From the NCBI RefSeq assembly GCF_035083965.1, contig NC_089724.1:20602974-20666973 (forward strand): a stretch of 64,000 nucleotides of DNA. Direction: 5' to 3'. Positions 20,764 through 50,300 of the stretch are shown piece by piece; positions within the stretch are counted from its first letter, which is position 1; each line of letters begins with the position of its first letter. Origin of the DNA: Branchiostoma lanceolatum. Taxonomy: Eukaryota; Chordata; Leptocardii; Amphioxiformes; Branchiostomatidae. The notes below the pieces were generated by a model. The model worked only from the letters and a program-made list of their open reading frames with translations, did no database searches and was not told the DNA's origin. The position numbers and the translations under genes are program-made.

Positions 20764-23700
20764 ATGAGGGCAACAATCCTCACGTCCTTTCTCTGTATTA
20801 TTGGATTTAGTTGTGCTTCAATGTTGGTCTTCATTTTGTACCTAACCACACATGGAAAACATATGGAGGCTGGCTCGATCGAGTGGAACACAGGCGTTGT
20901 AGACAACTCCATAAATACCAGGCGACACGGCGAGATTGTCAGAAGAAATGGGGTCGGTAGTCTGTCGGACACCGTGGCCGTTTCAGACAGGTATGTGTAC
21001 ACCACCCACGGCATAGTGGTGAGAGGGTCATAGTCACAACTCTGACTGTATTATATATCCTTATCAAACAGAAATTCTATTGGAAAAGGGATGCAGACAT
21101 TTATACTGTATCCGAATGGCGCACTATATGTAACCGAACTCCAAGCATATGTATACTGCAATAGCTCAGCTACGGACCCATTCAGCGTTCAAATTGCCAT
21201 TCAGAGCGTTGTGCATGGTTACAGTAACTGCCTCTGACAATCGGACAAATGAAGGTCTTAATTTTCAGTAACATAGGAACCTCCTAGTTTGAGGAGTAAT
21301 ATGATACTCGATGTAGTCTGAGGAGTAATATGATACTCGACTCCACTGTCATGGTTACAGTTTAGCATTTTCACATGAATTTGTTGTCCAGGCGAGGGAT
21401 TTGTGAATGTTTGAAAGGAGCTGTGAAGGAAGGGAGTATTTGGGCAGAGTAACTAGACTCGTGACCATGCGCGGTAGGTCGCTAGCTTTGTTGTCTTGGC
21501 AGATTGGTGGAGCCTGATCTTCATGTTTTGTGTCCATGGGGAGATAAGCTATCAAACGGACTCTAGTAGGTCTGCGCTATGATCTCCACGTGCACGGGTA
21601 CCATGGGGAATCACAAAGCCCATGGAAGCTAACGGGAGCTTACGGTAACCGATGGGATAAGCGTCCACGGCGTTAGAGCTTCGAGTAAGACAGATTGGTG
21701 AGAACAATGGTGTGCACGTGCCTATCATCATTACGTCGTTCACATTTGTAAGCCGCACGACTGATCATGTCTATTGTCAACTTATTGTGACCCTGTTGAC
21801 TTGCTACAGTTTACTACCGTTCTGTATCCTTTCAGAAAATACATCGCCGATAAATTGGGAGATCCACAGAGGAATCGACCTCACATCGTGTCTGCTGGGG
21901 ACACGGCAAATAAACAGCCTTCTGTGAGACGTGTCATCGCTGGGAGGGAAAACAGCCATTCTTTCCGTCCAAGCGAAACCATCAAGGTGGAAAACAATGT
22001 TTCCCCACAGTCTCAAGACAGACACAAAGATTTGGTTAGTATATATAGTGGTGAGCATGGACAGAGAAAGAACGAACCTTGGGTAGAACATAAGCTGAAC
22101 CAAGGAAATCACCAGCCACTACCTGTTGTGAAGGAGAATCTTCGCACAAGGTCAACAAGTATGATTAGAAAGGAATTTAGACCTGTCGGCCAAGGACAAG
22201 TCAGCCATTTAGTCCTTCACAACAGTTCCGATAGCAAAAAAGAACATGATACGCCAAAAGTAGAATCTCGCAAAGAGTTGCCTCTTGTTGTTGATGGGGC
22301 AAAGCGGACTGGACTGCTTACTCCTGGACAAAAGGAAACACTAAGCAGTAAAGATAAACTAACTTACCAGCCACATCACTTAGGACGAAACTCTACTTCA
22401 AAATATGAACACAGTGAACACGAGAAAAAGCCGTTGGGATCGAATGTAGAAACAGAAAAGACTTTGGATAATCACGCCGTTAAGATCAATAAACAATTCT
22501 CTGCATTGAATGTTACTGCCTACGCAGGGAGTAATGAATCTGTCAATGCCTTACCGATGCCTGCTAAAAGTAAACGTTCACCACTGCCAGTGATTGAAGA
22601 TGGAATAGAGATAGTCCACGCTGAAAGCTACCAACAGACTCATGGAGATGTGTGCGCTCCTAAGAAACATTTCGTGTGGATCAAGGTCCATAAGGCCGGG
22701 TCGCAAACCACAAACCCAATCTTCGAACGATTCGCCTACAAGCACCATCTGAAGGTCAGGGTTATGTTATCAACTATTCAAAACGGAACTTGCAATGAGT
22801 TCTGTTATTTTATTATCTCGATTTGTCAGGTCATGTTAGATAAGCGTTTGGCCTGTCTCTTCATCATTAAGTTGTATATGCCGTTTGTGCCAGTATGTAT
22901 GTGAACTTGAGTAGATTGACTACGTATACCACAGACATCAGAGATAACCTTCACTTCTTGCGCCTCCCTCCCATCGTTTTATTATCCAGCTATTGTTTGG
23001 TATCTCCAACGGACCGACTGTGTATTGGCCGCATTCTCCGAGAGGGGGCTTGTATGTCCAGACCCGGAAGGGAGGGCTGTTCGACGCCTTGTATGTTCAC
23101 AGGTAAGTTGCCGCTGTAGTGATATCGATCTCATTTCTAATTTCATACTTGTGAAAACATCACGGAACAATTTTTCATTATCATATAGTGACAAAACTGC
23201 ATGCAGAAATATCTGAAATAGTCGCGTATGTCTGCTCTGGTGTACCAGCTGCGTACTACAATATATAACAGAAATAGCTTGATCTATATCTGCTGTAACA
23301 GTTGTTCTTGTTAACGTTGTTGTAACCTTTTGCGTAACCTCCATAGCTACAATCATCTCTGAAAGGTTAACGTTGTAAGGTCAGGTCAGTTAAAATGTCA
23401 ACAGAAGTAGACAAGCAATACATCAGTTTACGAGGTTCGATCTTACAATGTGGTGGTTATTTTTATTCATTACCTATTATCAACTTTTGCCTCAAATTGT
23501 AATTAACAGATAAGCAAACAATGACGTTCTTGTCTTTACAGTCGTTACAATAAAACATGGATGCGAGCCCACTTTCCCAACGACACGGTGTATTTGGCCA
23601 TTGTGAAGGATCCGTTCTCCCACTTCAAGTCCAGTTTTCACTACTACCGTCTACAGCAGCACCTCAACTTACAAGACTCCTGGAACCCGATCAAGATGTT

Positions 23701-24415
23701 TCTCAAGAACCCCTGGAAATACAAAACAGAGGCATTGTATCAGGGAATACGGTTCGACAAAACCAGAAACGCACAACTCTTTGACCTGGGATTTCCCGTT
23801 GAGAAGTCACACGACATGATATGGGCCGAAGAATACATCAAACAGTTAGACATGGACTTCTTACTAGTGATAATTCTAGAACATTATGCAGAATCCTTGG
23901 TATTAATGAAGAGATTAATGTGTTGGGAACTGCTCGATATTCTATTAGTAGAAGATAGATTAAACTCTCGAAATTACCGGTACAAGCACTATCGTCCCAC
24001 ACAAGAAGAGTTGGTGAGGTACAAGCAGTACGCAGAGGCAGAATACGCGATGTACGAACGATTCAACAAGTCCCTGTGGAACAAAATCTCACAGCAGAGT
24101 CAGGACTTCTTCCAAGAGGTGGAACACTACAAGCAGGTGACGAAGCGAGTTCGAGATTTTTGCAATGCCAACTCAACGAAAGAACTTGTTATTTCAGCTT
24201 CTCCGTGGAATCCTCAATATAAAATGAGACAGTCTACATGTACCTACCTCAAAATACATGACTATGAATGGAGAAAATATTCGTGGGCACAGCTTCGCTA
24301 TCCACCACGTATCAAACGCCCCTTGCGACTTGAATACTACAACAACATTAGCAAGTATCACGACAAGCTGCTAGCTGCGGCCAGAAATGACTCTGCAGAA
24401 ATGGGGAGATCATAG
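20764..24415 (+). CDS. Gal3ST-family Golgi sulfotransferase, copy A (long stem), 4 exons
   Basis: Predicted type II Golgi enzyme moving sulfate from PAPS to a galactose-type acceptor; the substrate is unknown. Exons: 20764-20990, 21836-22754, 22990-23102, 23542-24415, giving 710 aa. The chosen ATG gives MRATIL with one membrane segment (about residues 5-27), as in copies B and C; an in-frame ATG at 20665 would add 33 residues. Exon 2 encodes an unusual polar, charged stem of about 280 residues. Then comes the 5'-phosphosulfate loop KVHKAGSQT (359-367) and the 3'-phosphate motif in AIVKDPFSHFKSSFHYY (Lys442, Ser450). The C-terminal domain carries LFDLGF, FLLVIILEHYAESLVLMKRL, MCWELLDILL and YAMYERFNKSLW, all matching Gal3ST enzymes as remembered. 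Vertebrate members are about 400-490 aa, so the extra length is the stem. First of four tandem copies. Confidence 0.88.
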
Positions 24416-24431
24416 CGTAAGGGCTATACGA

Positions 24432-24437
24432 AATAAA
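24432..24437 (+). terminator. Poly(A) signal AATAAA of sulfotransferase A
   Basis: Seventeen bases after the stop codon, which would make a very short 3' UTR. The following stretch 24440-25378 up to copy B shows no exon. Confidence 0.5.
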
Positions 24438-25378
24438 AGTGTTTGTCCATTGACTACTTCATTGTAGTACTGACTTCCAGTTCCAACTTGGCATTTTTTT
24501 TTATTACCTGAGGTGTGAAGTGAACATTAAATATACACCAGGTTACCATCCTGAAATCATATTGTATTGTTTTTAATTGGCATTCACGTGATCATCATAA
24601 GATGCTCCGGCTACATTTATGAGTGTAGACGGACGAGTTTTGTTCAATGGTTACATCTTCTCCTCACCATGTCCTTTACAGAACAAAGATAATGAGCTGC
24701 CATCTAAGTATGTGGGGCATTCTATTCATGCCATGCTTTGAGGAACTTTGAGGACTTAGGTAATTGATAGAAAAGTTGAGTAAGTGAATAAGCATGCTTT
24801 CGTCGGCAACGACGGTTACTTTATTGAATTCAACCTAAAATCCTTTAAACTATGTAGGTAAGACGAAAGTCGCTTTTAGTTGCCAACGAACAAACAAACA
24901 ATCTGAAAATTCACCCAACAGTTGCTTTTGTTATGACCTGTAAGCAGCCATGCATGGAATACAATGCCCTTTGACCTTTGGTGGTCGCCCTGCTTACTAT
25001 TGTGACACAGGTGTTTGTGGACCAACCGGTTCTTCTAGAGGACAATATGGCGAATTTAGAGATAATCTAGTGTATCAGATGTGAAATAAAAGAGTAGCAT
25101 CAAATCTCTTCTCTTTGTATCAAAATTTTATCAACTGAAGGAAAAGTGAGTAATTGTCAACATCAGGCAACAATTCCCATGCTACATACTGTGCATTTGC
25201 TACTCCAAAAACGGTTGACAAATCTACAAGACAACGCACACCCCCTTTTCAGAATAGCTCGATCCCAGGGTCAGGGAGCTTTTGAGGTTTCGCTGTAGTC
25301 TAACATTGTTAAGCGTTTCTCAGAAGTCATATCCAAATTGTTGTATAAAATATCTATTAGCAGCCAAATCCTACAAAC

Positions 25379-28300
25379 ATGAGACGAGGCCCAGTCGTCG
25401 CCTTTATGGGCCTTTTTGTCTTCGGTTGTGCCGCCCTTCTTGCCTCATTTTGGGACATAGAATCTTTTAAAAGTGGTTCTCAGCCGCTGTCGTGGGCTAT
25501 GAGGCCAGCTGTGTCACCGGGCCATATGCAAAATAAACGTGACACCGGAGCAAACCCGATGGGTTCAAAGGAAAGGTTAGTTTGGCTACTGATACCTATA
25601 TTTTCATTGTAAATACAGAATATCTTGCCGTGCTGTTGTGTGAGTAGGCTTAGTTGCAGACAACTTTCTGTTCAAACGGAAAGACCCACAACAAGAAAAC
25701 AAATGTTGTGTCTGTAATCACCACTTGTTGGCCTCGTAGTAATCAACCCAATGATAAATTTGGTGGCATGTAGTAAATACGTAATGTGCATCCAACAACC
25801 GAAAGAAACTGTTGCAAAAGCTTGGGATAATCAATGCTTAGTGTGGGGAGTCTATAATTTCGATGTGTCTGTTTGTGTGTGTCCGTAGTTATTTGAATAC
25901 ACTGTCAGTAGATTGGCATGATGTGAGTGGGCTGATGATGTGATATATGCTCCATATGCTAGTCATGTTCACAATGGACAATCGTCATGTTAATCACAAC
26001 ATATAATCAGTGAACTACAATAAAACAAGACAAACTAGAAACTCTTTTACGGAGTCGTGAGATATTCGAATTCTTGCTTCCAGAGAACAATTGACAGGCG
26101 CGAAAGATTCTTCAGAGGCTAACGAGACTACTGATGCACACAACAGTCAGCCGCAGCAGCAACAACAACAACAACAGAAGCAGCAACAACAACAACAACA
26201 ACAACAGAAGCAGCAACAAAAACAAGACAAAAAATGTGTTCCCAAAAAGCATTTCGTCTGGATCAAAGTTCACAAGGCCGGCTCCCAAACCACTACGCCA
26301 TTTTTCGAGAGGTTTGCCTTCAACAACCATCTCAAGGTCAGTGAGGGTCATTGTTGTCTCCGTTTGAAAAAGTGACCTGGAGAAACTAGATATCATGATA
26401 GGCATAATGAGGTTTAGTTCTTTGATGATCAGAACCGTCCAATTGTGGTCATCGTAGCACAATAAAGGAATACCATTCTTTCATACCACCGAAAGAAACC
26501 ATTGTGGCTAACAACGTACTTATTACCATGATCATTGCTTAAGCCAGAATTAGCCGCTATGATTTTTTCACTTCTCTCTTCTCTTTATTTTTCCTTGACG
26601 TGCCTGTTTCTACCCCAGGTATTACTCGGTGCCCACCGGGGCCCGACCATCAGCTGGCCGCTGTCGCCCAGAGAGGGAGACTATTTCCAGACGAAAGATG
26701 GCGGGCTGTTCGACGCACTTTATTCGCACAGGTACTTCATACAAAGTGATATACTTATTGATGATTAGAAATTACCTTAGCTTCAAAAGAGTCCCTGGAA
26801 GTAGTATCACACATCACCACACATCATAACTGTGTCGGTGTGTCAACCGTTAAAGAATGTGTAGTTTTTTGAGCGAGGCTTCTTTGAACATCAGTACCTT
26901 CAAGAAACACTCACCTTGACACACTTGGACTACTGCACAGCGGTTTGGACTTCTACGTCACAAAAAAACATCAATGCTCTACAAGTAATGCAGAATAAGG
27001 CGGCAAAACTTATTCTGGTATCTTACCGCATATCAGTCAGGGAAATGAACTGTGCGTTATCGTGGCAGACTGTTACAGAGAGACTTTACATCAGCAACAT
27101 GTGCACTTTCCATAAAATACTCTTCTTCAAACAACCATCCACTCTCCGCAGTAAACTACACCTCGTATCCGACCAACATACTTACAGCACAAGATCTTCA
27201 AAAATGAACGATTTCAAACTGCCAAAACCAAAAACATCATCTGCAACCAAGTCTTTTCTCTACCGGTGCTCAAAATCATACAACACGCTTCCATATCATA
27301 TCAGAACATCTGTACCATCCACATTCAAAATACACATCAAAGACAGACTAAAAATGGACAAAAACATTATGAACTGGTAGCAATTTGAAACTGATGTAAA
27401 TATGTATATATTATGTAATGTTATGTGTATGTGTTCCAATGTAATCTGTCTGTTCAACATGATGTGACTCCAGGAAGAGTAGTGCAGTACACTACGGTGT
27501 ACTCACTAATGGAGTCGTTTTACCAATAAACCAATAAACACTTCACAGTCTATGTAATTTCCGAAATCTGTATCAGAATTCCGACTTTCTTTTACTCAGA
27601 TGTATGCTTTCCTTTCGGACGAAACGTCTTTCTCTGTATAAAGTGTTTTCTATGGATCATGTGCAAAGAATATGATAAAGATATACATTCTGTATTCGCA
27701 GTCGTTACAACAAGACATGGTTGGAGGCCCATTTCCCCGACGACACGGCGTATCTGGCTATCGTTAAAGAACCATTTACACACTTTAAGAGCTGCCTCCA
27801 CTACTACAGCGTTCCACGAAAAATAAAATTGAAATCAAAAACTGAAAAGAACCCTGTTAAGATATTTCTGGAGGATCCTTGGAAATACAAAACGGAAGCA
27901 ATGTCTCAAGGGATCCGATGGGACAAAACCAGAAATGCACAACTCTTTGACTTGGGCTTCCCCATGGAAAAGTCTGATGACATGGAATGGACGGAGAAAT
28001 ACATCGCTCAGTTAGACCGGGACTTCTTACTTGTCATCATATTAGAATATCATGACGAGTCCCTCATATTGTTGAAAAGGCTAATGTGTTGGGAATTGTA
28101 TGATATCCTCCTGGGAGCTGAAAACCGAAACAGTCGACCGTACAGCTACAAGCACTACAAACCCACACCGGAGGAGGAGGCGACCTACAGAAAATACGCG
28201 GCGGCAGAATACGCCATGTACAAACGGTTCAACCAATCACTGTGGGAGAAAATCTCACAACAGAGCCCGGACTTCTTTCAGGAGGTGGACCATTATAGAA

Positions 28301-28566
28301 AAGTCACCACACACGTTCGTGGGTTTTGCAAGGGCGGGAAAAAGAAGGAACTTCTCATTCCAGCTTCAGCATGGAACCCCACGTACAAGCTGCCTCGTAG
28401 TCTCTGTAAAGCTCTGAAGACGGATGATCCGGTATGGAGGAGAAAGTCTTGGCAGCAGCTGAAGTACCCTCCAACACACCATGTCGACATACCGTTTAAC
28501 GCCAGAACCAACCTGGCTAAGTTTCTCGCCGCGGCCAGACGCGACTCTGAAGAGAATAAAGGATGA
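25379..28566 (+). CDS. Gal3ST-family Golgi sulfotransferase, copy B (poly-Gln/Lys stem), 4 exons
   Basis: Predicted PAPS-dependent sulfotransferase of the Golgi lumen. Exons: 25379-25575, 26084-26336, 26619-26731, 27702-28566, giving 475 aa with consistent phases (2, 0, 2). Residues 6-24 form the signal-anchor membrane segment after MRRGP. Exon 2 encodes a stem with about 30 mostly Gln residues broken by Lys, directly before CVPKKHFVWIKVHKAGSQTT. The 5'-phosphosulfate loop is at 127-135. The 3'-phosphate motif reads AIVKEPFTHFKSCLHYY. The C-terminal block (LFDLGFPMEKSDDMEWTEKY, FLLVIILEYHDESLILLKRL) is nearly identical to copy C over long patches. Intron 3 contains a LINE tail. The CAG/CAA tract could vary in length between individuals. 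Confidence 0.88.
26151..26229 (+). repeat. CAA/CAG-rich trinucleotide tract coding for poly-Gln/Lys
   Basis: Runs of CAA with interspersed CAG, AAG and AAA codons inside exon 2 of sulfotransferase B. On the opposite strand it produces a spurious poly-Leu frame. Confidence 0.9.
26880..27540 (+). mobile_element. 5'-truncated non-LTR retrotransposon (LINE) fragment, RT C-terminal tail
   Basis: The open frame to 27380 reads LTHLDYCTAVWTSTSQKNIN, LQVMQNKAAKLIL and then SFLYRCSKSYNTLPYHIRTS with a FKIHIKDRLK end. This is the usual tail after the reverse transcriptase domain of CR1/L2-like LINEs. The 3' end is a short tandem CCAATAAA motif (27523-27540), typical of such elements. It lies in the same orientation as the host gene, inside intron 3 of sulfotransferase B. 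No RT catalytic motif remains. Confidence 0.8.
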
Positions 28567-28613
28567 TGACTGTTCAATCACAGATGATGAAAGGACACTG
28601 AGGATAATACAGG

Positions 28614-28619
28614 AATAAA
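28614..28619 (+). terminator. Poly(A) signal AATAAA of sulfotransferase B
   Basis: Forty-eight bases after the stop codon. Confidence 0.5.
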
Positions 28620-28980
28620 GACAATGGAGTTGCTCTAGTTTTGGGACGTGTATATGGCTGGGAAAGACGTTTGTAGTACAACGGAAAACTTGTTCATTTT
28701 CTTTTTCACGGGAGACGCCTTAGATGTAATTGGAAAAAGCGTAACAAGTTCAAACTACCTCTCATCAAAGATACCCATTTTCGCATTGCTAGATGTACAT
28801 GAGCATCAGGACTGCTACCTTTGCTTTCATAGGGAAAACGCTAACAGGAACTGAATTGATTTCCATTAGTGGATGACGATTACGTTTTTGTGAATGGTAG
28901 GAATGGCATGGTTTAGGCCGATAGGGAAAGACGTAGTTGGATTTTGGGAAAGATTCATTTTCAGATTATCTCAAACGATT

Positions 28981-29637
28981 CTTAATTGTTTGGACCTATA
29001 ATAGTAGGAAGGTCTTTGTCGGACACAGGCAAGTTTTTTTGTTCGAAGCGAGCGTATTCAGGCTAGGCCAAGACATCTGTTTATCCAAGTGACCGTCCAA
29101 GATGATGACTCGTGAGAACCAGAAGCCATGCGATGTGTTGATGGCTACTCGAGATATCTAATGAAATATCTGTCTTTATCTTGATGTATAGAGATGTTGG
29201 TCTGTGCTTTGAGTGCGTTTACAAGCTGAAATGTACATCGACTCCTCCTGCCGTTTCTTTTCCGTCTACCCTGTTATTTCTTCTCACTGTTTCCACCGAG
29301 TGTTTTACTTCCCGAAGACGCAGAAAAAGAGAAAGAGGGATAGGTCAGCCTAGCTAGAGATCGACGTACACCATAGCAACTACAAGTCAGTGTGTTTGAA
29401 GCGACCTCTGGCGGTTATTACTGGTTAGTTTACAGTAGGTCTAGTTAGATAAAATTTAGATGAAAGACAAGATATTCAATTCAAAGTACATTTAGTGTAG
29501 TCTAGTCCATAATGATCGAATTTCGCCGAGATAGTGTTGTTAAGCTAAATAATCTACTATGTGATAAGACTCATTCTTTAATAAAACGAGTAATCAATTA
29601 TTGTTGTTCTTAATTTTGTTCGCTGAACTTTGCTCTG
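28981..29637. repeat. Diverged spacer duplication, unit 1
   Basis: Aligns in the same orientation with 29741-30372: CTTAATTGTTTGGACCTATA against CTTAATTGTTTGAACCTATA, shared GGCCAAGACAT and CCAAGTGACC blocks, AAAGTACATTTAGTGTAGTC, and GAGATAGTGTTGT near the end. No coding frame. It lies between sulfotransferases B and C; the rest of 28567-30737 shows no gene. Confidence 0.75.
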
Positions 29638-29740
29638 TTGAAGTGAACATTAAAAATCAAACCACCTCTGTAATACAGATCTCCGACCGTTCACAGTGAG
29701 CCTAATTCAGACATTCATGTCTAGAATATTTTAGAAGTTT

Positions 29741-30372
29741 CTTAATTGTTTGAACCTATAATAGTAAGGAAGATATTTGCCCAGATACATACACGTTTAT
29801 AGGTACGAAGTAAGCGTACTCAGGTTAGGCCAAGACATATCTGTTTCTCCAAGTGACCACCCAAGTCTGATGACGCGTCGATGAATGTCTGAGCTGTTTA
29901 CATAATATATCTGTCGTTATTTTAACCTGGGAATATAGGGAGCAAGCTCTGTGAGTACGTTTGTAAATTGAAATGTATGTCGAACAATCTTGTCTTTTCT
30001 TTCTCGTCTACCGTGTTACTTCTACTAACTGTTTCTATCGGATCTTATTTATAGTACATAAAGAGGGAGAGAGAAAGATAGTTCAGATTAGACAGACATC
30101 AAGAATTGCATGTATTATCTATCATCATGGCAAAGACAATTGCTTGTGATTGAAACGACTGGTGATCGGCTTGTTTACAGTAGATCTACTTAAATAAATG
30201 GAAAAAGTCAATTTACAGGAAAGTACATTTAGTGTAGTCTCTTCCGGACTGTTTATTGAGATAGTGTTGTGAAGCTACGTAATCCACTAAATGTAATGTC
30301 TCGTTCGTAAATAAACAAAATATTTCGATGCATTGAAGTATCGTCTGTTGTTCTTTACTCTTGCTCTTTGAC
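29741..30372. repeat. Diverged spacer duplication, unit 2
   Basis: Second copy of the block at 28981-29637, with small insertions and deletions, at an offset of about 735-760 bases. It directly precedes the promoter region of sulfotransferase C. Confidence 0.75.
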
Positions 30373-30737
30373 CTTTGTCCTGATGTCGTACGGTGGGTGC
30401 ACAGTTTGTGTACATCATCTAAGTGGATCAACTGGTTTTCGGACGGCACCATAACGACACTTTAACTGTCAGAAATCAAAGCTGCAAATTAATTCCATTG
30501 AGACATGTAAGCTAAAACATTCCACGTGAAATGAAAATGATGACTACAATTGGGTTACGCCTGCTTAAGGATGTGTAAAAATATACTTGGATACTAAATG
30601 CCATTCAATGTGTCAAAAAATAATTAACCCGTGGACGCTAACACCCCCACTTCATACGTAGCTTCTGCCCGGACGGATCAAGGTTTTGGCAACACGTATT
30701 TACACATTCTGTGACAATATAATTCGAGTGTAGAAAC

Positions 30738-33700
30738 ATGAGAAAAGACCCATTCGTTGCCTTTCTGGGCCTTCTCGCCTTTGGTGGCGTCGCTCTATTG
30801 GCCTCTTTCTCGGACGTAGCGTTCACTAATAGTACTTTACAAACTCTAACGTGGGGGAGGAGATTAGATGTGTCAATACAGGTAAACCCTCTGGGACGTG
30901 AAAATCAAGATGGAGACAGCCACAATGCGTCGGTCGAGGGTAACCAGCAGTCCTCCAAGGACTGTATCCCCAAGAAGCATTTCGTCTGGATTAAAGTTCA
31001 CAAGGCTGGCTCTCAAACCACTACGCCATTGTTCGAGAGATTTGCCTTCAACAACCATCTCAAGGTCAGTGAGGGTCATACAACTTAACCCTCAAACCAC
31101 CGTATGGGGTCAAAACTGACCCCAAGCTCATATCAACATGTGCCATTTTGACATTTCGAGTCGAAAACAAAATTCCTTCTATGAGTTTGTTTGTATATAT
31201 GTCTTATAACTTCTCACAAGTTTTTACCGAGATTGGCTCATTGTTGATTAAGTTATCCTAGAAAGTTTACGCATGGTCCAGTGGGGTCAAAATTGACCCC
31301 AGCAAAATCTGCACTCATATTCCCTATTGTTTGATACTTGTCATCTAGTAACATTTATGATAAGGGTTATTATGATCATAGTTACAAAATATAATTTCGT
31401 AGAAACTTGAAAAAAAATTTTTTTCTAAATGAACGTAAAAATTGATGACGTTGCGACGTATAATAACGTCATTTATGTGATTTTATTGACGAAAACCTAC
31501 AAATTGGGTATTTCCGTATAATTCAAAGGTACACGATAAAACTTAGATAGAAATTATGTATGATAAATCATAATATATCCAAAGACGTTATTTGTAGATG
31601 GCAACATGAACGACGTCAAAATGACCTCATAAGAATTATATTCATATCAAGTTACACTAGGGAAATCCGCCATCTTGGTTCCGCCATCTTGAATTATTTT
31701 GAATGCATTTTTTCATCATAAAACCTAATAACACAATAAAAATGGACAAAAACGTTTATATTAAGATTGTTTCTGTTTGGATAAACATGGTAGTGATGAA
31801 ATTTGAGGTTGAAATAGCCGGTTATAGCTAATCTAATTATATCGTCCGCCATCTTAGATTTTGACCGATGACGTAATCAAATATGCATAAATTATGAATA
31901 TTAAGTCATAAAAATAATAGTGAATTAAATTGGTTGGTATTGATGTAAGAAATAAGTGCAGTTTAAAAAGACAGCCCTAGAATTACATTGTAAAATCCAA
32001 AAGTAGCGACTTTTTCCAAATATGGCTCTAAGAAACCGGTTGCCATAGCAACATGAAAACATTGATAAGATATTTCATTAGATGAAAATTGTTGCCAACG
32101 AAATTTTAGCAAAGGTGACCAAGTTTGGTTGTTCTAGCGTAATCCATTCAGATGCTATATGACATCAAGTGTTGGCGCAGGCCTCAAAAGAGCCCGCCTG
32201 TCTGAATAGCGTTAGTTGCAAAAGACGATGTTCCCTATTTTTGCATAAATTATGATAATGAGCGAAAATTATTCACACCTAATCATGTCAAACTGTCCCT
32301 TATAGATTACTTAAACTATACATATATACAAACCACAAAAATAGTCACCAATAAAGCTATATTTGTAGAAAACATTGTGGGGTCAGTTTTGACCCCATAC
32401 GGTAAGATTAGTCGTAAAAAAGCTACGGTGGTTTGAGGGTTAAGTGGATAGTACTGTATGAATAAAACTTGAAAAGAATGTCATTGTACAATTATCATGA
32501 TACTACATGTTGTTTTTTCAGGTGTGATAGAGGTGAAGTACTGGCAGGTAAAGTACTAGAAAGTACCAGAGTACACAATTGTACTTGTAATGTACCAGAG
32601 TACCCAATTGTACTTGTAATGTGCCAGAGTACCCAATTGTACTTGTAATGTACCAGAGTACCCAATTGTACTTGTAATGTACCATAGTACCCAATTGTAC
32701 TTGTAATGTACCAGAGTACCCAATTGTACTTGTAATGTACCAGAGTACCCAATTATACTTGTAATGTACCAGAGTACCCAATTGTACTTGTAATGTACCA
32801 GAGTACCCAATTGTACTTGTAATGTACCAGAGTACCCAATTATACTTGTAATGTACCAGAGTACCCAATTGTACTTGTAATGTACCAGAGTACCCAATTG
32901 TACTTGTAATGTACCGGAGTACCCAATTGTACTAGTAATGTACCAGAGTACCCAATTGTACTTGTAATGTACCGGAGTACCCAATTGTACTTGTAATGTA
33001 CCAGAGTACCCAATTGTACTTGTAATGTACCAGAGTACCCAATTGTACTTGTAATGTACCAGAGTACCCAATTGTACTTGTAATGTACCAGAGTACCCGA
33101 TTGCACTTGTCCACTTTCAGTGCATGCTATAATTCAGCGCTAAATGTTCTCTCCGAATCATCATCTTCTATGACTATGTCCCAGGTGCTACTTGGTGTTC
33201 ACAATGGCCCGTCCATCAGCTGGCCACTACCGCCCAAGGAAGGCAAGTATGTCCAGACGAATAAGGGAGAGCCGTTCGACGCCCTGTACTCACACAGGTA
33301 CGTCACGTCAAGTTCTGTCAGCTGAGATTTCTACTACAGCATTTAAAACTAACCATTTTGTCGAAGATGTAGCTAGTATTTGAAAAGATTACGATAGTGT
33401 CGTAGTATTTTCAATCACAGTTTTATTAACATTTGAAGACAATATAATCCTCAAGACAAGTAGCTTGTTAGATTGTTTGTGTCTATACGACAACATTGGT
33501 GATTTTTGTTGTTGTTGTTGTTGTTTTTATTGATAATACTTTTTTCCAATCTACATAGTCGTTACAATAAGACATGGATGGAGGCCCATTTTCCCGACGA
33601 CACGGCGTACCTGGCTATTGTTAAACAACCCTTCACACACTTTAAGAGCTGTTTCCACTACTACGGTGTATCAAGAAAAGTTGGCATCAAGTCTAAGGAC

Positions 33701-34423
33701 AAGAGTCCCTTAAGAAAGTTTCTGGAGGATCCTTGGAAATACAAAACGGAAGCAATGTCTCAAGGGATCCGATGGGACAAAACCAGGAATGCACAACTCT
33801 TTGACTTGGGCTTCCCCATGGAAAAGTCCGATGACATGGAATGGACGGAGAAATACATCGCCCAGTTAGACCGGGACTTCTTACTTGTCATTATATTAGA
33901 ATATCATGACGAGTCCCTCATATTGTTGAAAAGGTTAATGTGTTGGACATTGTACGATATTCTTTTAGGATCAGCAAATAGGAACAGTCGTAGTTACGGC
34001 TACAAGTACTACAAACCCACACCGGAGGAGGAGGCGACCTACAGAAAATACGCGGCGGCAGAATACGCCATGTACAAACGGTTCAACCAATCGCTGTGGG
34101 AGAAAATCTCACAACAGAGCCCGGACTTCTTTCAAGAGGTAGACCATTACAAAAATGTCACCATCAAAGTTCGTGAATTTTGCAAAGGAGGAAAGGGTAA
34201 AGGATTGGTCATTGCAGGCACACCGTGGAACAGCGAGTACAGACTGCCCCGTGGTTTCTGTACAGATCTGAAGACAACCGACCCAAGATGGAGGAGTAAG
34301 TCATGGCGCCAGCTGGGATACCCGCCTCGCAGGCCACCGGGGGAACTCTTCAACGCCAGAGTCTATCTCAGCAAGTTTCTACACGCAGCGAGAAATGACT
34401 CTACAGAGAATGAGCCCCGGTGA
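30738..34423 (+). CDS. Gal3ST-family Golgi sulfotransferase, copy C (intron 1 missing), 3 exons
   Basis: Predicted Golgi-lumen PAPS-dependent sulfotransferase. Exons: 30738-31064, 33185-33297, 33559-34423, giving 434 aa. MRKDP is followed by one membrane segment (about 6-24). The membrane segment, a stem of about 50 residues with two NxS/T sites, and the 5'-phosphosulfate loop KVHKAGSQT (86-94) lie in a single exon; in copies A, B and D an intron splits them. The 3'-phosphate motif reads AIVKQPFTHFKSCFHYY. The remaining exon junctions match those of A and B exactly (113-nt middle exon, last exon beginning T-CGT-TAC-AA). The last exon is close to that of copy B. Intron 1 of this gene (equal to intron 2 elsewhere) carries a transposon-like element and a minisatellite. 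Confidence 0.88.
31089..32439. mobile_element. Non-autonomous piggyBac-like element (TTAA target, inverted ends)
   Basis: Flanked by TTAA at 31085-31088 and 32440-32443. The ends are inverted copies: CCCTCAAACCACCGTA at the left, and the reverse complement of TACGGTGGTTTGAGGG at the right. After about 41 extra bases on the right side, both ends resume the shared CCGTATGGGGTCAAAACTGA and CCCC. TTAA flanks plus ends starting CCC fit piggyBac elements. Length 1351 bp; no transposase frame is visible, so it would need help in trans. The GGGGTCAAAAYTGACCCC palindrome also occurs inside, near 31279-31300. Confidence 0.75.
32563..33110 (+). repeat. 29-bp minisatellite, about 19 copies
   Basis: The unit is GTACCAGAGTACCCAATTGT followed by ACTTGTAAT. 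Copies are nearly identical, with scattered single-base changes (GTGCC, GTACCGG, ATTATAC). It ends about 75 bases before the 113-nt exon of sulfotransferase C. Since 29 is not a multiple of 3, the repeat stays open in several minus-strand frames, which creates long but meaningless ORFs. Confidence 0.95.
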
Positions 34424-34719
34424 CTTGTTATAGAGTACACAATCCTGTCACTAAAAACATTTAATAGATAAGCATTTGGAAAATTAAGTCAATCGACATG
34501 CCATTGCTGTGCCCTTTGAAGATGATTATCATTTTATGCTGCTTCGTCGTTTGTGTAACTCTACATGTGTCTGTGACGCAATCCTTGTATTATTCCAACC
34601 ATGTAAAATGTCATTCTACTCTAACGTTAGTTTGTGACGAATACATTATTAAAGCGATAAATATAAACGGGATTTGTTTTAGACATTTTTCGTATTTCGT
34701 TACCATATCTGTAGGTGAC

Positions 34720-34725
34720 AATAAA
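34720..34725 (+). terminator. Possible poly(A) signal of sulfotransferase C
   Basis: First AATAAA after the stop codon of copy C, about 300 bases downstream. The stretch 34726-35704 to copy D shows no exon. Confidence 0.4.
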
Positions 34726-35704
34726 TGATGCCATGATCTGTAGATGCTCTAGTCTAATCTTTATCATATCATGGGTCATAAATTGGAAGATAGCTTCGCT
34801 GACATTTTCCATCTGTGATAGATGATTGACAAATATCGTACATTCTGTTCACATCTCATTTTGATATGAGCAAATCGTTTCGAATAAATGTGAGAGGCGT
34901 GCAAATATCCTTTCTTTTTTGCGTTATTACTGTATTGCATTATATATGTACATTTGATATATGTATGGTATACATGAAACATATGTAAAGCACAAAATAA
35001 TGTTGGTTTACTTCAGTTGACCTTGCCCAATTATCTGACGAAGTGAGTCATGTTTGAGGCAGCTGCATGCCTCCCGGGGAAACGGCCCTTTTCCAATGTT
35101 AACGTCTATTTAGTAAGTACAGAATTTTACAAATTCACATAACAATATGAAACCTTTCCATTCAAGCATGGTGGATAAATCTTAACTCATCTAGACGCTC
35201 GCGATGAGCAAATTAAAGAATGATTAGATAGGCTGGGCCCAGCCGTTCCCAACGTGCCCCTTAAGTTGTTATTGCCTGCCTCAAACTTGTCGGACAAGTT
35301 GGCTCGGCAGGAAAGTTTGGTATGTTGTTGATGTCTATTTTGGCATGCTAATTAGGAATGACCTAAAGGCCCTCGAGGGGCGGCCTTTGGGATAATAGAG
35401 AATTAGAAAACAACATCCATCTAATTTTATAACAACAAAAAACGAAAGCCATCCCCTTAGAAAAGAAAATACACAACCTCTTGCCACTACGTACGGGAGA
35501 AAGAGATAGAGTCATTCACCTTATCTTCACCTCGTGAGGTTACACCCCTTCTAGATTTCTGGTCCGCCCTTAAGAGATTCGAAGATTAGACACTACCATA
35601 TGTGCGTCAAATAGATAATGACAGGGGGAGGGTGTACGTCACTAACCATTATTTGTTCCTGCCCACAAATACCTGACGAGAAGGATTGTGTCGAAAGTGT
35701 CACA

Positions 35705-38343
<2,639 letters not shown>

Positions 38344-41035: not shown

Positions 41036-43271
41036 GACTCCACCTGACAGTCAGGCCGGGAAAGGATGATTTGTTCAGCTATGGAAAAGATAAACCTTAT
41101 TGGAAAGCATCAGTCATTGTTCCCGGAAACTGTGGTGAGGATTTATATGAAACTGGCGGCGTTATATATGTTTTAAAAAGTAGAGTGCCACTCATTCCTC
41201 ACCTAACCGACATCGTTCGCAGCCATATGCATCCCTCAGTAAGATATCTTACATGGCCCCGGTACATACATTTGATATACATATTACTACTTGAAACCGT
41301 ACATTATGGTAGATGTTGGGCAGTCAGCAACGCAACAATGTTGACTTGTGTATAGTGAAACATAACAACTGTTTAAATCTTACATTCACAGGCAATATAT
41401 CGAAAGCTACCACAGTGTAACTTTGTCACCATCCTTGGGAATGACATTGACTGCCCGATGAAATTTAAGATTTGTATTCACTGCATTGTGAAGTGTTTAC
41501 GTAAGTAGATTTTAGTTTCACTCAATACTTAATGGCATGCCGTTAAAAGTGAGGTTTCGTGCGTCTGACCATGACCTACGGTCAGAGTCTACTGTTATCA
41601 TGGGATTCGTAATTCATCAAATAAGAATTTCTGCAAATGGGATTTCCTGCGACCAATAAAGACAAGGCAACGTGGATGAAGGCAAAGTTGCCGCCCGTCG
41701 GTGTAGTGTACCGCACCGATGGGTTCTGCAGCGGAATGTTGTCGTCCTGGATCTTATGGTAATACTGGGGAAGATTTCAGTTTCTCGTTAAATGGCCTAA
41801 GGTGGGAGGGGGGCCTCCCGGGCGGACCAGGAAGGCGTTGACAGACTTCTTTACCTAAGGCAAGCATGTCTTACACATTGCCGTGCACTTCCCTAGGGGA
41901 TAGAATATCTTTATGGTTGATAAGCAAATGGAGGTTGTTCTTTGATAAAGAAAGAAAATTCTACGATGGTAGATGTTTCATCCATTACTGTTAATGTTGG
42001 TGTAATCCGACCTTCGCAGAACATGAGCAAGATACTTTCTCACATGCTTCTTCTTCGTGGAGGCAATGAACAGAGGTTAGTTTTAATGGTATCCTTTCGA
42101 GCCTGAGTGTCATCCTACTTAGTTTACTTTGGCTCCCATACTCTTGGTTCGGGGTAAACCAACTAATCCCTGCAGCTATTTTGTACAAATGGGAGGGGAA
42201 AGACCTAACGTTATAGAAATCAAAAGGTTTTTTTTTTTAAAGCGAGATATCGATCGACGTCATCCTCTGGACTCGACATTTGTTCGCATGGATTAACCTG
42301 GGATAGTTGGATGCTGCACGACTAGAATAGGAACCATAGTCACATGGGAGGAGCTTACATTAACCCGACACATGTACCCCTCTCACACGCACCACTGATT
42401 TCCCACTGTACCTCACATGAGAGTACAACAATCGCCGGTGGCTTTCTTCCCGAAAACTAAGAGCAGGTTCCCTTTTGTCAGCTTGTGAAAATTTGCCTCT
42501 TTGACTATTTGCCTGAAGACCCATTGTTCCACTCATAACAATTGTCAAAACAAAAATCGTAGCGACGACTTGAATTTGAAGGGGGAAAACAGTTGTGAGA
42601 GATTCACATCCGAGATGACACCGATGATAGATGACAAAGATGTTTTTCTTCCGTCGTGACGTTTGAATAATGATGTGATAATGCTAGTTTTCCTTGATGG
42701 CGATATCAAGCTTGGCTATCACGATTGCAGGCTGTATGGATACGCCTGTGCACCCTTATCTCATACTGACCTCCTCGACATCATTGTTGGACAGGGAATA
42801 GCACGAGTTTAATCTTAGGAATGCATCCAATGGAACACATGGAGAATATCACAAGCATCGTTTGCTCCATGTAGTAAACTTATATTTCAGTGCATATCAT
42901 AAGGAGAGGTCATTTTTTTCCAACTCGGATCAGAAACGAGGGTCAGATAAGGTCTGTCTCACTGAGTAAGGTTTATGAAACTTAGAATTGTCTGATGGCA
43001 ATGCGTCCTTTGAGTAGTCCGTTGCTGCCTTACGGGGTGGGGGTATGGAAAATGTAGTTTCGCTGTAATGATTAAAGCTTACAATAGCAAGGCTTCATTG
43101 AGTAAGGAAATATTAACTTGTGCGAATATTGCAGGTGACTCTTAACTGTAGAAAATGTAACTATATCTGTCATCTGTAACTATAACTACCCCAGAACAAC
43201 CACTATTTCGTCTAATGCGGGAAAATGAGTACTCCAATATGACAGGCTTGCCAGATTAGGTCAAATTATGC
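41036..43271. other. Gene-free stretch
   Basis: No exon was recognised. Open frames are short, without homology or good splice sites. It lies downstream of the peptide gene at 43582-46488. Confidence 0.4.
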
Positions 43272-43277
43272 TTTATT
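43272..43277 (-). terminator. Poly(A) signal AATAAA of the peptide precursor gene
   Basis: TTTATT on the plus strand reads AATAAA on the minus strand, about 305 bases after the stop codon at 43584-43582. Confidence 0.45.
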
Positions 43278-43581
43278 CCAGAGATCTATCATCCATCCAC
43301 TAAGAATAGTTTCGGATGGGACAGGTACATTTGAATGATGTTCTCACATAAACCCAAACTTTTCATAAAATATGTACTTCTGTTCTGTTCTGTTCTACTC
43401 TATACAATCTTCCAACTGTCTCATGAATACGTGTGATTGCCTTATTCAATTATGACGATGGACGTCAAAACTCAATGGTCATAATGTGTTAACTTAGAAC
43501 AAGGGCGTCGGTTCGCATTAAATCTAGGGCATTCGCAAATAATTATTGCCCGAGCCGTGTTCGCATGGCTCTTCTTCTGGC

Positions 43582-46488
43582 TTACTTCCTTCTGTCTGAA
43601 AGCCAGCTCCGCAAGACAGGGTTGTAGTCTCGCGTGGCTCCACGAGATTCTCCCCACATTGGGTCGGAGTACCACGTGTCCTGGCCCTTGGGTTCCGCTC
43701 CGTTCACAAAGAAGGGATACGTCGATGGGCCCCGTGGTGTCTGTGGAAAGTACGGTAAAGTGATTAAAACTTTGACGCTATCCAGAAGGGAAATACATAC
43801 GAATAACGATGGATTAAACTTAATGAAGACGACAACAGCGCCGTCGGCTGCTAACCGTAACGATGGGATTTTTATTTTTGTGTCGACAGCAGGGGGCATA
43901 TATTTAATGAATACATATGAACAAACACTTCTCAATTCCAGGAATCTCTATCAAACTTCTCTGGTGTGAAGTATTCAGTTTTGGATAAATGTAACTTTGA
44001 GTTTCTTTATCAAGAAGAGCAGCTGTTTTTCCCAAGACGACGTTTATCTTAACGCCGAGGCCCAGTGCTGTTGTAAACGTAGGTGCTACAAGTCGGTCAT
44101 CATTAAGTAATATTTGGTAAAACTCAACATAGTTCAACATGTGTAAAATTCTCAATAGGAGTGAAGCTAGCGTTAAGGTAACGATTGAATGCCAGGATTC
44201 CAGTCTACCGTTCAGTAAATCACTCATTGTGTGAGAACATGGCACGATTACCGTACTCAGGACCGGAACATGGTCATGACTCACGCTGGATCTTCATTAC
44301 ATCGTTCACCCAATTACTCACATCAAAGATGACATTTCCAGTAAAGAACTTAATACGTTCTTCAACAAGCCGTGTTCGAGGGAAATCAGTCACTGAATAA
44401 CGCTAATGACCGGTAATGACGGAAGCCAGACAGTTGCACCAAATTCAACTGCTGAATGCTATGATTTTGATGCGTATTCATGCAGAGTTTGGACGCCTTC
44501 AAAATCAGGGGAAGCATTCTCTCCCGAGTGATCACCATCATTGCTCATGCCAACTCTATAATAGCGTTGATTGATATGAATTGACTTAGTGATTCCAACG
44601 GCAGACCCACGCTTATTACTGTGCAACATTGCCAGGTAAATGTGTCTGTCAAACATGATTGGTCATGGTATTTGCTGCACCGAGCTGTGCTTGAGACAAA
44701 TGTTATTAGTGGAATTACGTTCAGCTGAACGGGAAGGGAATGACCCTCCTGACTGCGATCGCGACCAAATTTCTAAATTAACGATGAATTAATCGCATGC
44801 ACTTTTTGTCATCTTCATCTTCAAAACTGCCAATTCTGTTTTCTTCCCCTTTCGAATTCCTTTAAGTTTCACAAATTCCAAAAAAAATCTAAGCAAAGTG
44901 AAATACCCGATGGACGGGACAATATCTATAAGACGTGTAATACAATTTTCATTTCTGTTTTGAGCCGTAAAACTAAATGATGGGGAGTTCGTGCAGAAAA
45001 AAACAACTCCAAACATTACACCGTGTGTGTTCTACAATATTATAACCATTTGAATTTCAAAGCAAATATCAAGCCAATGGTTTGTATTTTTGAGCAACTT
45101 GACGGTAGTTATATGAAATAGACAAACCCTTCGATTGCCATGATGCATTACATATCAATACAATGCTGGTCTTACCTCATCATCCATGGCTTGTGTGGTC
45201 GTTCCCTCCGGACTGTACTGGTTTCTGTGTTTCTGTGAACGAGAAAGCATTTTCTAGGAAGGGACGGGCGACTGTCAGTTTTCATCTTTCCTAGTTACAA
45301 CAACTGCCTCCCCTGCTATTACTGCCAATAAGACGGTATGTCTGATTTTACTCTGTTTTCAACACAGTGCAGTAGTACCCATGGGTGGCCAGTAAAAGGC
45401 TGCGGTGATTCTCCACAGGTTTAGCTTTATGGGGCTCTTTTGTCTTTACCATTCTAGACAATAACCATCCATAAATGCGGAAACAATACTTCAGCTACAT
45501 ATTCAAAATATTGTATCTTGATTAACAATGCACGACCCGATAACCATCATGTAAAAACGTTTGATTTCTATCTCTTGTTATTCATTTTTTGGTTTAAATA
45601 GCCCAAAAATAGTCCAAAGGACGGTACAGGTATTTGCAGTGCACATTCAAAGTGAAACGTACAGCTGATAAGTTTGAATATGTGATTTACTGATTTCAGC
45701 GACTAAAAAATCACATCGCCGCTGAGTTTCTTATCTGGCTAATCTAATATGCAACTCGATAAGCGGTTAGGTTACGCTTTACATAAAGAGGGTGAATTCT
45801 CTGGGGAAAAAGAGCGTGTGCTTTTGGTAGATCGATCAAAATGTCCTTTACGGCAATTTAGTTAATGTTCAAATTGGTACCGTCTGGAGGTTAACTTGCT
45901 GAACAGGAAGGTAAAAGCTCCCCGATAAAGCTAATTACTCGTACGGAAAAGTTGATAATGCGGGCTCATCGATCAACATATTTCCTTGCCCCCTTTCTAC
46001 CGTAGATTTCAACTAAGGCAGGGATGTCAGGAACAGACTAGGCTAATGCATTCGGCGGCTCACATTCAACGTTTTCGTGAAGTTTTGTCATTCCGTTCAC
46101 AAATACATCTGCGTAGCAAAATCACACGTATAATGATACAGAACTCAACTTTCCCGCCACTGCAAGACAAAACATATTTCGTAATCAGTTTAAAATACTT
46201 TTTCAACTCTTAAACTGATGTTTATAGAGACAAGGCCGTGTTATATCATATATATCTATATCAATAGAGTTATTCGTAAAGAAGGCAGAAAAGTTAGCCT
46301 TGAAATCAAGCGGGATGCTTGAGAGAAAAACGAAAGATAATTACATGTAGCAGACTTCGGATCTTCTCTCCGAGCAAGGCAGCTCTTTTCTTCCCCGGCG
46401 CGAACCCGTAGGAGTACGAGTAGGCTTCAGACGTGTGGAGCAGGACCAGCACAATGGACAGTGATATCAACAGCGTTTTCATCTCTCT
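43582..46488 (-). CDS. Secreted GnRH-like neuropeptide precursor (candidate), 3 coding exons
   Basis: Coding exons in transcript order: ATG at 46482 to 46345, 45232-45176, 43740-43582 (TAA), all phase 0, total 354 nt, 117 aa. A strong acceptor (TGTGTTTCCTTTCCAG, AG at 46488-46487) lies just before the ATG, so a non-coding 5' exon is expected upstream. Residues 1-20 (MKTLLISLSIVLVLLHTSEA) are a clear signal peptide with a -3 Ser, -1 Ala cleavage site. Directly after it comes YSYSYGFAPG (21-30), then KKR. The decapeptide shares Ser4, Tyr5, Gly6, Pro9 and Gly10 with vertebrate GnRH and has Tyr for Trp3; there is no N-terminal Gln. If Gly30 is the amide donor, the product is a nonapeptide amide. 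The rest is an unmatched spacer without Cys, including SLLH, SPEGTTTQAMDDE and YPFFVNGAEPKGQDTWYSD. The exon plan resembles GnRH genes. Not recognised as a known named peptide. Confidence 0.68.
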
Positions 46489-46655
46489 GGAAAGGAAACA
46501 CACCACAGTTCAGTTGACCGAAAATAAGGCAAAAGAACGTGTACCGATTCGAGGTATCTGTTAACAACCGGGTTGACTTGCGGTATCTGAGACTGCGAGC
46601 TGCCGGCTTCAACTGAAGCTGAATCACTAGGCATCCGATCTTTATCTCCTGTACG

Positions 46656-46663
46656 TGACGTCA
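46656..46663. promoter_or_regulatory. Perfect CRE palindrome TGACGTCA
   Basis: It lies about 175 bases upstream of the peptide gene's start codon, in the likely promoter or 5' UTR region. A second perfect copy is at 46984-46991. CREB-type sites are common in neuropeptide promoters; whether this one is used is inference. Confidence 0.4.
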
Positions 46664-46983
46664 CAATCACGCCACAGCATGTAATTAAGAAGCTGGGAGT
46701 AGCACATTAGCCAGTATGGATTAATGAGATGTCGTCATTATGACTTTCATTCTCACGTGGCGTGTCGGGTGAAAACTTTTTCTCCAGGATATCTTAATTA
46801 CTTTTGCATGGAGACCTTCGAGTGACGTGGACAGACGTCATACTGCATCTACCCTCTTTCATAACAAGATTTCTGACGTAAAGCATCAGTATAAAAAAAA
46901 ACTCTTCACTGATCTTATCAATATTGCACATCCTGCTTCCGGTAGGATTTTATCTGTGCGTTGATTATAGATGGTTAACATTC

Positions 46984-46991
46984 TGACGTCA
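46984..46991. promoter_or_regulatory. Second perfect CRE palindrome TGACGTCA
   Basis: About 500 bases upstream of the peptide gene's ATG, just outside the TTAA-flanked element at 47001-47342. Confidence 0.3.
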
Positions 46992-47000
46992 CAGGCTTAA

Positions 47001-47342
47001 GTGGGTATCTTACAAGACTGCGCCTAATTGCGGCCAACTTTGCGAATTTTCGCCAAGTTTCTATTGCGATCACAATGCCTTGGAGCGCACTGGTAAATAC
47101 GTGACCTCTACAAACAAAATGACCGCACCCGAAATGACATATTCTCAGTTTCGACTTCAAATCAGATACAATATGACTTTATTGGAAATCGCAGTGTTGC
47201 CGCTTAAAATTATTAGAATTCGTTAAGAAAAGATTTGCTTTTCGCCATTTTGCGGTTCGCCATTTCAGGCGACAAATTGGTGCCTTTGGCGAATGTCTAT
47301 CGCAATTTGGCGCAATCAGGCGCAGCCCAGTGAAATACGCGC
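47001..47342. mobile_element. 342-bp MITE with TTAA flanks and imperfect inverted ends
   Basis: TTAA at 46997-47000 and 47343-47346. The left end GTGGGTATCTTACAAGACTG and the reverse complement of the right end GCGCGTATTTCACTGGGCTG align and continue through CGCCTRATTGCG. The interior is rich in CGCAATT/TTCGCC motifs. No coding frame. It is a different family from the CCCT-ended element at 31089. Confidence 0.6.
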
Positions 47343-47346
47343 TTAA

Positions 47347-50300
47347 GGAAGTAGACGTCTACTGGAGATTGTGTACCACATTGCCCTCAGAAACGAATCT
47401 TAAACTGTGGCACTCCCCTGTTGTATTGTCTAGTTAGTTTCCATACCTTGGTGGTTTTTAAGGCCGAGAATGATGAAGTTAACGTTTCGATTTGACATTG
47501 CATTTGTATCAGCATTGCGTTAATTTTGATTTGAGGCTATGCTGTATTCACGATTTTACGACATACAAACGGTAATCCAATACAAAAGATCAATTCATTA
47601 GTAGATATAAACTCCCTCACAAACCGCCAGAATGGAACAATCTTCCAATTTTTCCTTATTTAAAGGTGAAAGGAAGTACAACCAATCTTGATCGGATATC
47701 AATGGTATTTGTTGTTCGAATGACAGGAACACACTGCTGGATGGTTTTAGTGCCAAGTTAATAACGCAGCTGAATATTTGCAGACTTTAGGGCTTAGGCG
47801 TACATTTGTCGTTGATTCAAGTCAAACAAGGCCAATACCACATGGAGCAAGTTCCAATTTGCATCTTGTGTACCTAACACTTCAACAGTGCTTTAACAGA
47901 TAATTAGAGCTTAACAGCCCATTTCGGTTGTTGCCCTTGACTAATCTGTTCAGCTGTAACCTCTTCATGTGAAGAAATGAGCTTAGGAGTGTTCACTGTG
48001 CCAATTAGAGGGATTACGGGATACTTGAGATAGCTAATGTGTGCGCACGACGATAGACGGTATCGTGGTTGGAATTAATTATTAAGTTAAGACCGCTAGT
48101 TTTCCTTGAAATAGGTGCTTCTGAAATGGGTACTTTCCATGTGCTTGAAGGACATAGTATCGCCAAAATCGCTTCATGTTCTTCAATCTGGAAGCTGCAA
48201 CCAACTATACAGCAATTTTATTAAACGCGGACCATAGCTTGCTAGGGTTTTCATATGTTGTAGATCAGTGTGGAGTTTCTGTAGATAAACTGAATATCAC
48301 ACGGGAATGAATAAACTTGCGTTGCTTCCACCTGCCATAAGCTGTACGATCTTACAATTAACTTTGAACATTAGCCTAGTTAGTTGTTACGCGTACCGTC
48401 TTGTCAAGTATCAAGTGTATTCTTACAGCTAGTATCAGATAGTAAGTTGGACGGATGAATTGAACGTCTCATTGAGTAGCTTTTATGCATTTTCGTCTGA
48501 CGTACGCTGATCCCATACTGTAGCCAAGGCGAGAGATGAAAGTACAGTACATAGCAGTTTCGTGTAGCCAAAGCTAACTTCAGACGGAGAGCCAGGAAGC
48601 TGCTGCCATTGAAGAACTGTCAGAAGTTTCCAAGTAACGTATGCTGACGTCAGACCAGGTGGGCGCCCTGGAGGAGCGAAGTTGTCGAAAGCTCGCGTGA
48701 CGTAAGCTACCTCTAACTTCGTTTGGCCCTGTCACCGGACCTAAGTTAGTTAGCCCCATATAAAAGTACACGAAGCAGTTAAAGAGACCATACCATGGAT
48801 AATCGAACAGGTAAACATTCAAACGGCATTGCTGTGTCTGACCAGGATTAACATTACTAACAACATCATTTTAAGCTCACAAGCCTGCAGTCATTGCAAT
48901 ATGAGGCGGTTGTAGTTTTATTTAAACATCAAAACATGAATACAACAACAGTTGCTGGCACCACATTTAAACAACGGTTTCAACATCTTCCTGCTGTCAA
49001 CCACGTTGAGATAAACGCCTCCAACACATGGGAGGTTTGTTGCCAGATGTTACTGTGGGGTATCCAAATTGCGCCCATGATTGTTCATTAGATCCTAGCT
49101 GTATCCCTGCGTTTCCCCTGTAATTCGACTTGCATACGTTTAGCACAACTGGTAAGCTTTGATGTGTGAATTGGGTCGAGTAGATTAAAGGTGAAATAAG
49201 ATTAGTGGCCAAATCTTCACACGAAATATAAGCCACTGCATTACCCAGATGAAAGGATACCATAATCATAGACGCTATGCCTTAATTTATATACATTTAA
49301 GGGGAAAACATTACGTTTCTTTGGTATATGATGTGATGCGAAATGAATATGTGTTAAAGAATCAGTTATTGGTACCGTAGTTTTGTGATTGTGAAATGTA
49401 AAAGTCAAACACTTTCGTGTAAAGCTGGTCAGAATACGGTGATTGTAAATCACGCCAACTTTGTCAAGTAATTTGTGCGGGATCAAAAAAGTGCTGAGCA
49501 ATGCAATTCGTGCTACTTTACTTGTTGATTTGTATACTAGTACATAGGGACGAACTATGAAACTCCCATTTTAAGTGAATCTTGGTTACAGTTGTGTGAA
49601 CTAGTAGATCAGGGTTGACCATGAGACCGCTGATGTGATGAAGAGGAGCAGGTGCGGTACGGACGAGTCAAGCACCAGGGTCTCGATACGCGGCATTGAG
49701 TGTCTACCATTAGATAAAGTGCTGTTACGATACCTACAATGGGCTTCTCAAACCCATCACATTGTGCATGTACGGTACGAGTGGGTACATGTAAGAACCA
49801 TTGTCTAAAAGCTTAAAGGGCTATGACGTTGTCCGTAGATAATCGCTGTGGATATGACTTCGATCGTTGACTTAATGGACTTCGTACCTTTGACTTTGAA
49901 CCTGAGAAAGACTAAGAGTGTATGTCCCTGTAAACCAGAAACGCGGGATATAACAGTCGTCTGACCTCACAGTAACGAGTGAAAAAACTGTTGGAGTAGA
50001 AATTTTCCTGGACGTTGAACAACTCTAGGCAATGTAGTGAGGTAGTTACAGACAACGATGTGTGAGGAAAGCATGCGGGAATTGGTCATTGTGACTGTAA
50101 TCATGCATTCAACCAGTCAGCCATTTCTGCTGCGTTCGGGGGAAAATTGACGGTGTCATTTTCACTCAGAAGAACGAAGCAGCAAGGTCTTGGCTTTTCT
50201 CAATGGTAAGATTCATCAGCCACTTTGTAAAAATTCTGCGAGCTTATTCACAGATCAATATCCTTGTGGAAAGTATCCTGTGCTGTTAAAAATCGTGGTG

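Follow-up and report, generated by a model that had tools for sequence, protein, structure and literature searches.

A Branchiostoma lanceolatum locus very probably encodes the already published amphioxus GnRH precursor

The authentic GnRH of the amphioxus Branchiostoma floridae was described as YSYSYGFAP-NH2 by Yanez-Guerra and Zandawala (Genome Biol Evol 2023; PMC10321317). The authors recovered the precursor by searching transcriptomes of B. floridae and B. belcheri with an HMM, and it is pointed out that divergent peptides of this sort evade typical BLAST searches (PMC10321317). SignalP 6 was applied to the B. floridae precursor, whose gene bears two coding introns, the first of them in phase 0. 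The missing N-terminal Gln is noted by these authors, who still class the peptide as a GnRH by its gene structure and its receptors: synthetic YSYSYGFAP-NH2 activates B. floridae GnRHR1 and GnRHR2 in HEK293 cells with low nanomolar EC50, whereas corazonin does not activate these two receptors (PMC10321317). The same peptide also activates three corazonin receptors, which respond best to corazonin—in amphioxus FTYTHTW-NH2, derived from a separate precursor—and deuterostome corazonin genes are described as bearing one coding intron (PMC10321317). Conserved synteny is claimed for the GnRH locus, and mass spectrometry is, according to the authors, still needed for the mature peptide (PMC10321317). 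In a further article, an amphioxus GnRH is named with reference to Roch et al. (PMC9049855). A full-text search of an open-licence article library for YSYSYGFAP returned PMC10321317 alone, and the same search with YSYSYGFAPG returned nothing.

Here, we analyzed a stretch of 64,000 nucleotides of the B. lanceolatum genome—hereafter the window—which bears on its minus strand a gene with three coding exons (Table 1). Translation of the joined exons from the ATG at 46482-46480, which lies 6 bases inside the upper edge (46488) of the feature as first delimited, yields a precursor of 117 residues with zero Cys. Its order is MKTLLISLSIVLVLLHTSEA, then YSYSYGFAPG, KKR, and an associated peptide, with the signal peptide (20 residues) and the point of its cleavage assigned by eye. 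Hence, one hormone copy directly follows the putative signal peptide and is itself followed by Gly and a dibasic site, as is characteristic of GnRH-type precursors. The length of each coding exon is divisible by three, and the two coding introns, both in phase 0, agree in number and in the phase of the first with what is given for deuterostome GnRH genes (PMC10321317). The donors of these introns read CAT/GTAATT and GAG/GTAAGA and the acceptors TTCACAG/AA and TTCCACAG/AC. With a G+C content of 0.53, 0.51, and 0.58, the coding exons lie above the introns (0.39 and 0.395) and the window as a whole (0.41). All elements listed in the preliminary description—signal peptide, decapeptide, KKR, Cys-free remainder, three phase-0 exons and their junctions—are thus present in the minus-strand translation and at the splice sites, with the signal judged by eye.

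Table 1. Features assigned to the gene and its upstream region, in window coordinates. P0001 and P0002 are the two Branchiostoma database proteins introduced in the text.
Feature	Position	Strand	Description
Coding exon 1	46345..46482	minus	46 codons; from translation and splice sites; residues 21-45 same in P0001 and P0002
Content of coding exon 1			putative signal peptide 1-20, YSYSYGFAPG 21-30, KKR 31-33, associated peptide 34-46 (its first 13 residues)
Coding exon 2	45176..45232	minus	19 codons, associated peptide
Coding exon 3	43582..43740	minus	52 codons and stop TAA
Intron 1	45233..46344	minus	phase 0, 1112 bases, GT-AG; P0001 and P0002 proteins run on across the junction
Intron 2	43741..45175	minus	phase 0, 1435 bases, GT-AG; P0001 and P0002 proteins run on across the junction
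Codons of mature peptide YSYSYGFAP and Gly amide donor	46393..46422	minus	from sequence; published form YSYSYGFAP-NH2
KKR, presumed prohormone-convertase site	46384..46392	minus	invariant in three sequences; cleavage presumed
Possible polyadenylation signal AATAAA	43272..43277	minus	consensus match only
Probable 5'-UTR intron	46487..46581	minus	95 bases, GC-AG (GCAAGT ... TTTCCTTTCCAG), putatively ending 4 bases before ATG
Candidate palindromic CRE-like site TGACGTCA	46656..46663	.	sequence match, ~175 bases upstream of ATG
Second candidate palindromic CRE-like site TGACGTCA	46984..46991	.	sequence match, ~500 bases upstream of ATG

Compared with the B. floridae GnRH precursor, the window precursor bears the same mature peptide, in a single copy after the signal peptide, with the same intron count, the same phase of the first intron, and the same lack of Gln1; no difference to the published description is seen, whereby this identity covers peptide and architecture and not each residue of the precursor (PMC10321317). 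We are therefore about 97% confident that the window holds the GnRH precursor gene already described in print for Branchiostoma, whose product would be processed to YSYSYGFAP-NH2. The gene is real and already known, and it is not new. The preliminary description had proposed a candidate new GnRH-like gene and knew of no such peptide among those published from amphioxus. Its assignment to the GnRH superfamily stands, but its claim of novelty fails because the same peptide, precursor, gene structure, and receptors have been in print since 2023 (PMC10321317). The two points that it had found odd—no N-terminal Gln and a single Gly as amide donor—agree with the published YSYSYGFAP-NH2 (PMC10321317).

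The sequence, read in the light of how prohormones are generally processed, allows the following maturation to be proposed. The signal peptide would direct the precursor into the secretory pathway, where a prohormone convertase would cut at KKR and a carboxypeptidase would remove the basic residues; peptidylglycine alpha-amidating monooxygenase would then convert the exposed Gly into a C-terminal amide, yielding YSYSYGFAP-NH2. This peptide would act on the two amphioxus GnRH-type receptors and also on those of the corazonin type—their activation has been shown by others. The region after KKR would be left as an associated peptide that is mostly freer to vary.

In the arrangement of its first coding exon, which holds signal peptide, hormone, cleavage site, and the start of the associated peptide, the gene resembles the vertebrate and tunicate GnRH precursors. 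The hormone itself has S4, Y5, G6, P9, and G10 in common with mammalian GnRH-I, and the five matches among ten positions counted previously are hence confirmed (permutation p 0.0004). Toward seven known GnRHs, 3 to 5 positions of YSYSYGFAPG are in common (p 0.0003 to 0.017). Unlike the vertebrate and tunicate hormones, YSYSYGFAP-NH2 lacks pGlu1, His2, and Trp3—residue 1 is Tyr, so that an N-terminal Gln as the source of pyroglutamate is absent, at variance with GnRH-type peptides—and the single Gly before the basic site leaves a nonapeptide with a Pro-amide end in place of the Gly10-amide. Moreover, a Pfam scan of the precursor returned no family at E up to 10, a range in which HMMER filters drop most matches above ~0.1. 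Pfam presumably includes a GnRH model. As no Pfam family matches, the assignment to GnRH depends on how the gene is built and on the receptor assays performed by others.

The 5 of 10 positions in common with mammalian GnRH-I and 3 to 5 with the seven GnRHs, the lack of pGlu1, His2, and Trp3, and a silent Pfam scan are also what an unrelated secreted peptide would show if its GnRH-like ends had arisen by convergence. Against this, the precursor HMM of the published study picked up the peptide, the number of coding introns fits deuterostome GnRH genes, and the peptide activates both GnRH-type receptors, which corazonin does not (PMC10321317). These receptor assays already speak largely for the refutation of convergence, which we regard as very improbable. 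Activation of three corazonin receptors in the same assays might instead point to a precursor of the corazonin type, the GnRH paralogue. Yet the window gene bears two coding introns and not the one of deuterostome corazonin genes, and amphioxus corazonin comes from another precursor and is preferred by its own receptors (PMC10321317), which makes a corazonin identity exceedingly improbable.

A protein search with the 117-residue precursor (5.8 billion proteins, E up to 10) gave two hits among 10 candidates, both from Branchiostoma. P0001 (LOC144868629, B. floridae x B. japonicum, 167 aa) is 94% identical over all 117 residues and carries the same hormone region, its model beginning 50 residues upstream. 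P0002 (LOC109462930, B. belcheri, 118 aa) is 88% identical across the entire precursor, with the hormone, KKR, and the next 12 residues unchanged; it differs by L15I in the signal peptide and, further along the associated peptide, by an added residue and by changes at scattered positions. Both are named 'uncharacterized protein', and the N-terminal extension of P0001 is doubtful, which might raise the suspicion of a pseudogene or an annotation artefact. This is countered by the open frame, the GT-AG splice sites of the coding introns, and the conserved precursor, and the precursor was recovered from Branchiostoma transcriptomes (PMC10321317); a pseudogene or artefact is accordingly exceedingly improbable, and the GnRH precursor gene is the reading we retain.

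Residues 21-45, which begin with the hormone and end at the last but one codon of coding exon 1, are invariant across the three sequences. Among the 117 columns, 15 are variable, of which none falls into residues 21-45 (hypergeometric P = 0.021) and one into residues 1-45 (P = 0.005), while for the hormone and KKR alone—13 residues—the lack of variable columns is not significant (P = 0.15); this count excludes the single inserted residue of P0002 and the 50 residues by which P0001 is extended, and three close sequences make for a weak test. Judged by these sequences, conservation lies toward the end that holds the hormone, in the first coding exon, and the remaining associated peptide appears to drift. 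The preliminary description had named three contrary outcomes: no transcript joining the exons, no conservation in other Branchiostoma species, and conservation of the spacer without the decapeptide. The precursor is reported from Branchiostoma transcriptomes (PMC10321317), other Branchiostoma entries carry it, and in the three sequences the hormone region is unchanged and the spacer varies.

Across its six frames, the window holds a single match to the pattern of Met, 12-30 residues, a small residue, xxxS xxxx PG, and a pair of basic residues, as compared with 0 matches in 100 first-order Markov copies of the window. The looser core SxxxxPG-[KR][KR] occurs twice in the window as compared with a mean of 0.22 in Markov copies; its other match, at 22681 on the plus strand, stands without a signal-peptide-like context. 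Both patterns were devised after the sequence was seen, so that the Markov counts serve as a guide only. As sequence evidence for a gene, conservation in two Branchiostoma entries is stronger than the rarity of the pattern.

No repeats of at least 20 bases were found in 43000-47500 (seed 12), and minisatellite-like repetitive ORFs with units such as YNWVLWYITSTIGYSGTLQVQLGTLVHYK lie at 32495-33133 in three minus-strand frames. A Pfam scan of 19 window ORFs matched 8 at E up to 0.001. On the plus strand, 21765-38340 holds a tandem array of galactose-3-O-sulfotransferase (GAL3ST) genes: four ORFs between 23525 and 38340 exceed the PF06990 cut-off, and a fifth, 21765-22901, is below it. When the sulfotransferase ORF 33557-34420 was searched, the best 7 of the 13 proteins listed were from Branchiostoma, with a top identity of 87%, as fits DNA of a lancelet. 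Soluble guanylate cyclase-like gene fragments (guanylate cyclase catalytic and HNOBA domains) occupy 12569-14579 on the minus strand, and a CANIN domain exon (PF14816, E 1.8e-10) lies at 6565-6810 on the plus strand, which we take to be probably part of an SLF2/FAM178-type gene.

The 50 extra N-terminal residues of P0001 also bear on the region upstream of the gene. When aligned to the window by tblastn, they fall into three different frames, one of them with a stop: MTTSHYYILPNVPL aligns to MTTSH*SILANVLL with the stop inside, LNYMLWRDCDVTHR is identical at 13/14 residues in a second frame, and DKDR...SVEA...TPE at 13/23 in a third. This DNA is thus conserved, but the window does not read through it in a single frame, so that the extension probably arose when gene prediction ran into conserved DNA of the promoter and 5'-UTR. 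The P0001 model reads ...SVEAVSSQSHTPE-M, and the final part of its extension, SVEAVSSQSHTP, matches the contiguous window DNA SVEAGSSQSQIP. Removal of the 95 bases 46581-46487 joins SVEAGSSQSQIP to E-M in one frame, as in P0001; hence, the P0001 protein and the window DNA read together suggest a non-coding first exon, whose intron would end 4 bases before the ATG. If this proposed splice occurs, a further ATG comes to lie in frame in the window, 19 codons ahead of the start assigned here, from which a longer N-terminus might conceivably be translated.

Two candidate CRE-like sites lie in this region (Table 1), and the DNA around the one nearer to the ATG translates to 13/14 residues of the upstream stretch of P0001. 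The palindromic TGACGTCA occurs six times in the window (0.94 expected), with two occurrences within ~500 bases upstream of the gene and four elsewhere—three of these further upstream, up to 55710. As four of the six lie elsewhere, CRE-like sites are not peculiar to the GnRH promoter. The looser TGACGTMA gives 16 rows as compared with 3.93 expected, with palindromes counted twice. In vertebrate GnRH genes, the first exon is non-coding and is followed by an intron that ends immediately ahead of the start codon. It is conceivable, at somewhat less than even odds in our estimation, that the amphioxus GnRH gene is built in this manner too, and that its promoter is conserved and bears CREs.

The gene was recognized from raw DNA letters alone. 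Its identification is of practical use, as both matching database entries are still named 'uncharacterized protein' though the peptide is published as GnRH. If the proposed upstream structure holds true, the ancestral chordate GnRH gene would have comprised four exons and would have been cAMP-responsive.
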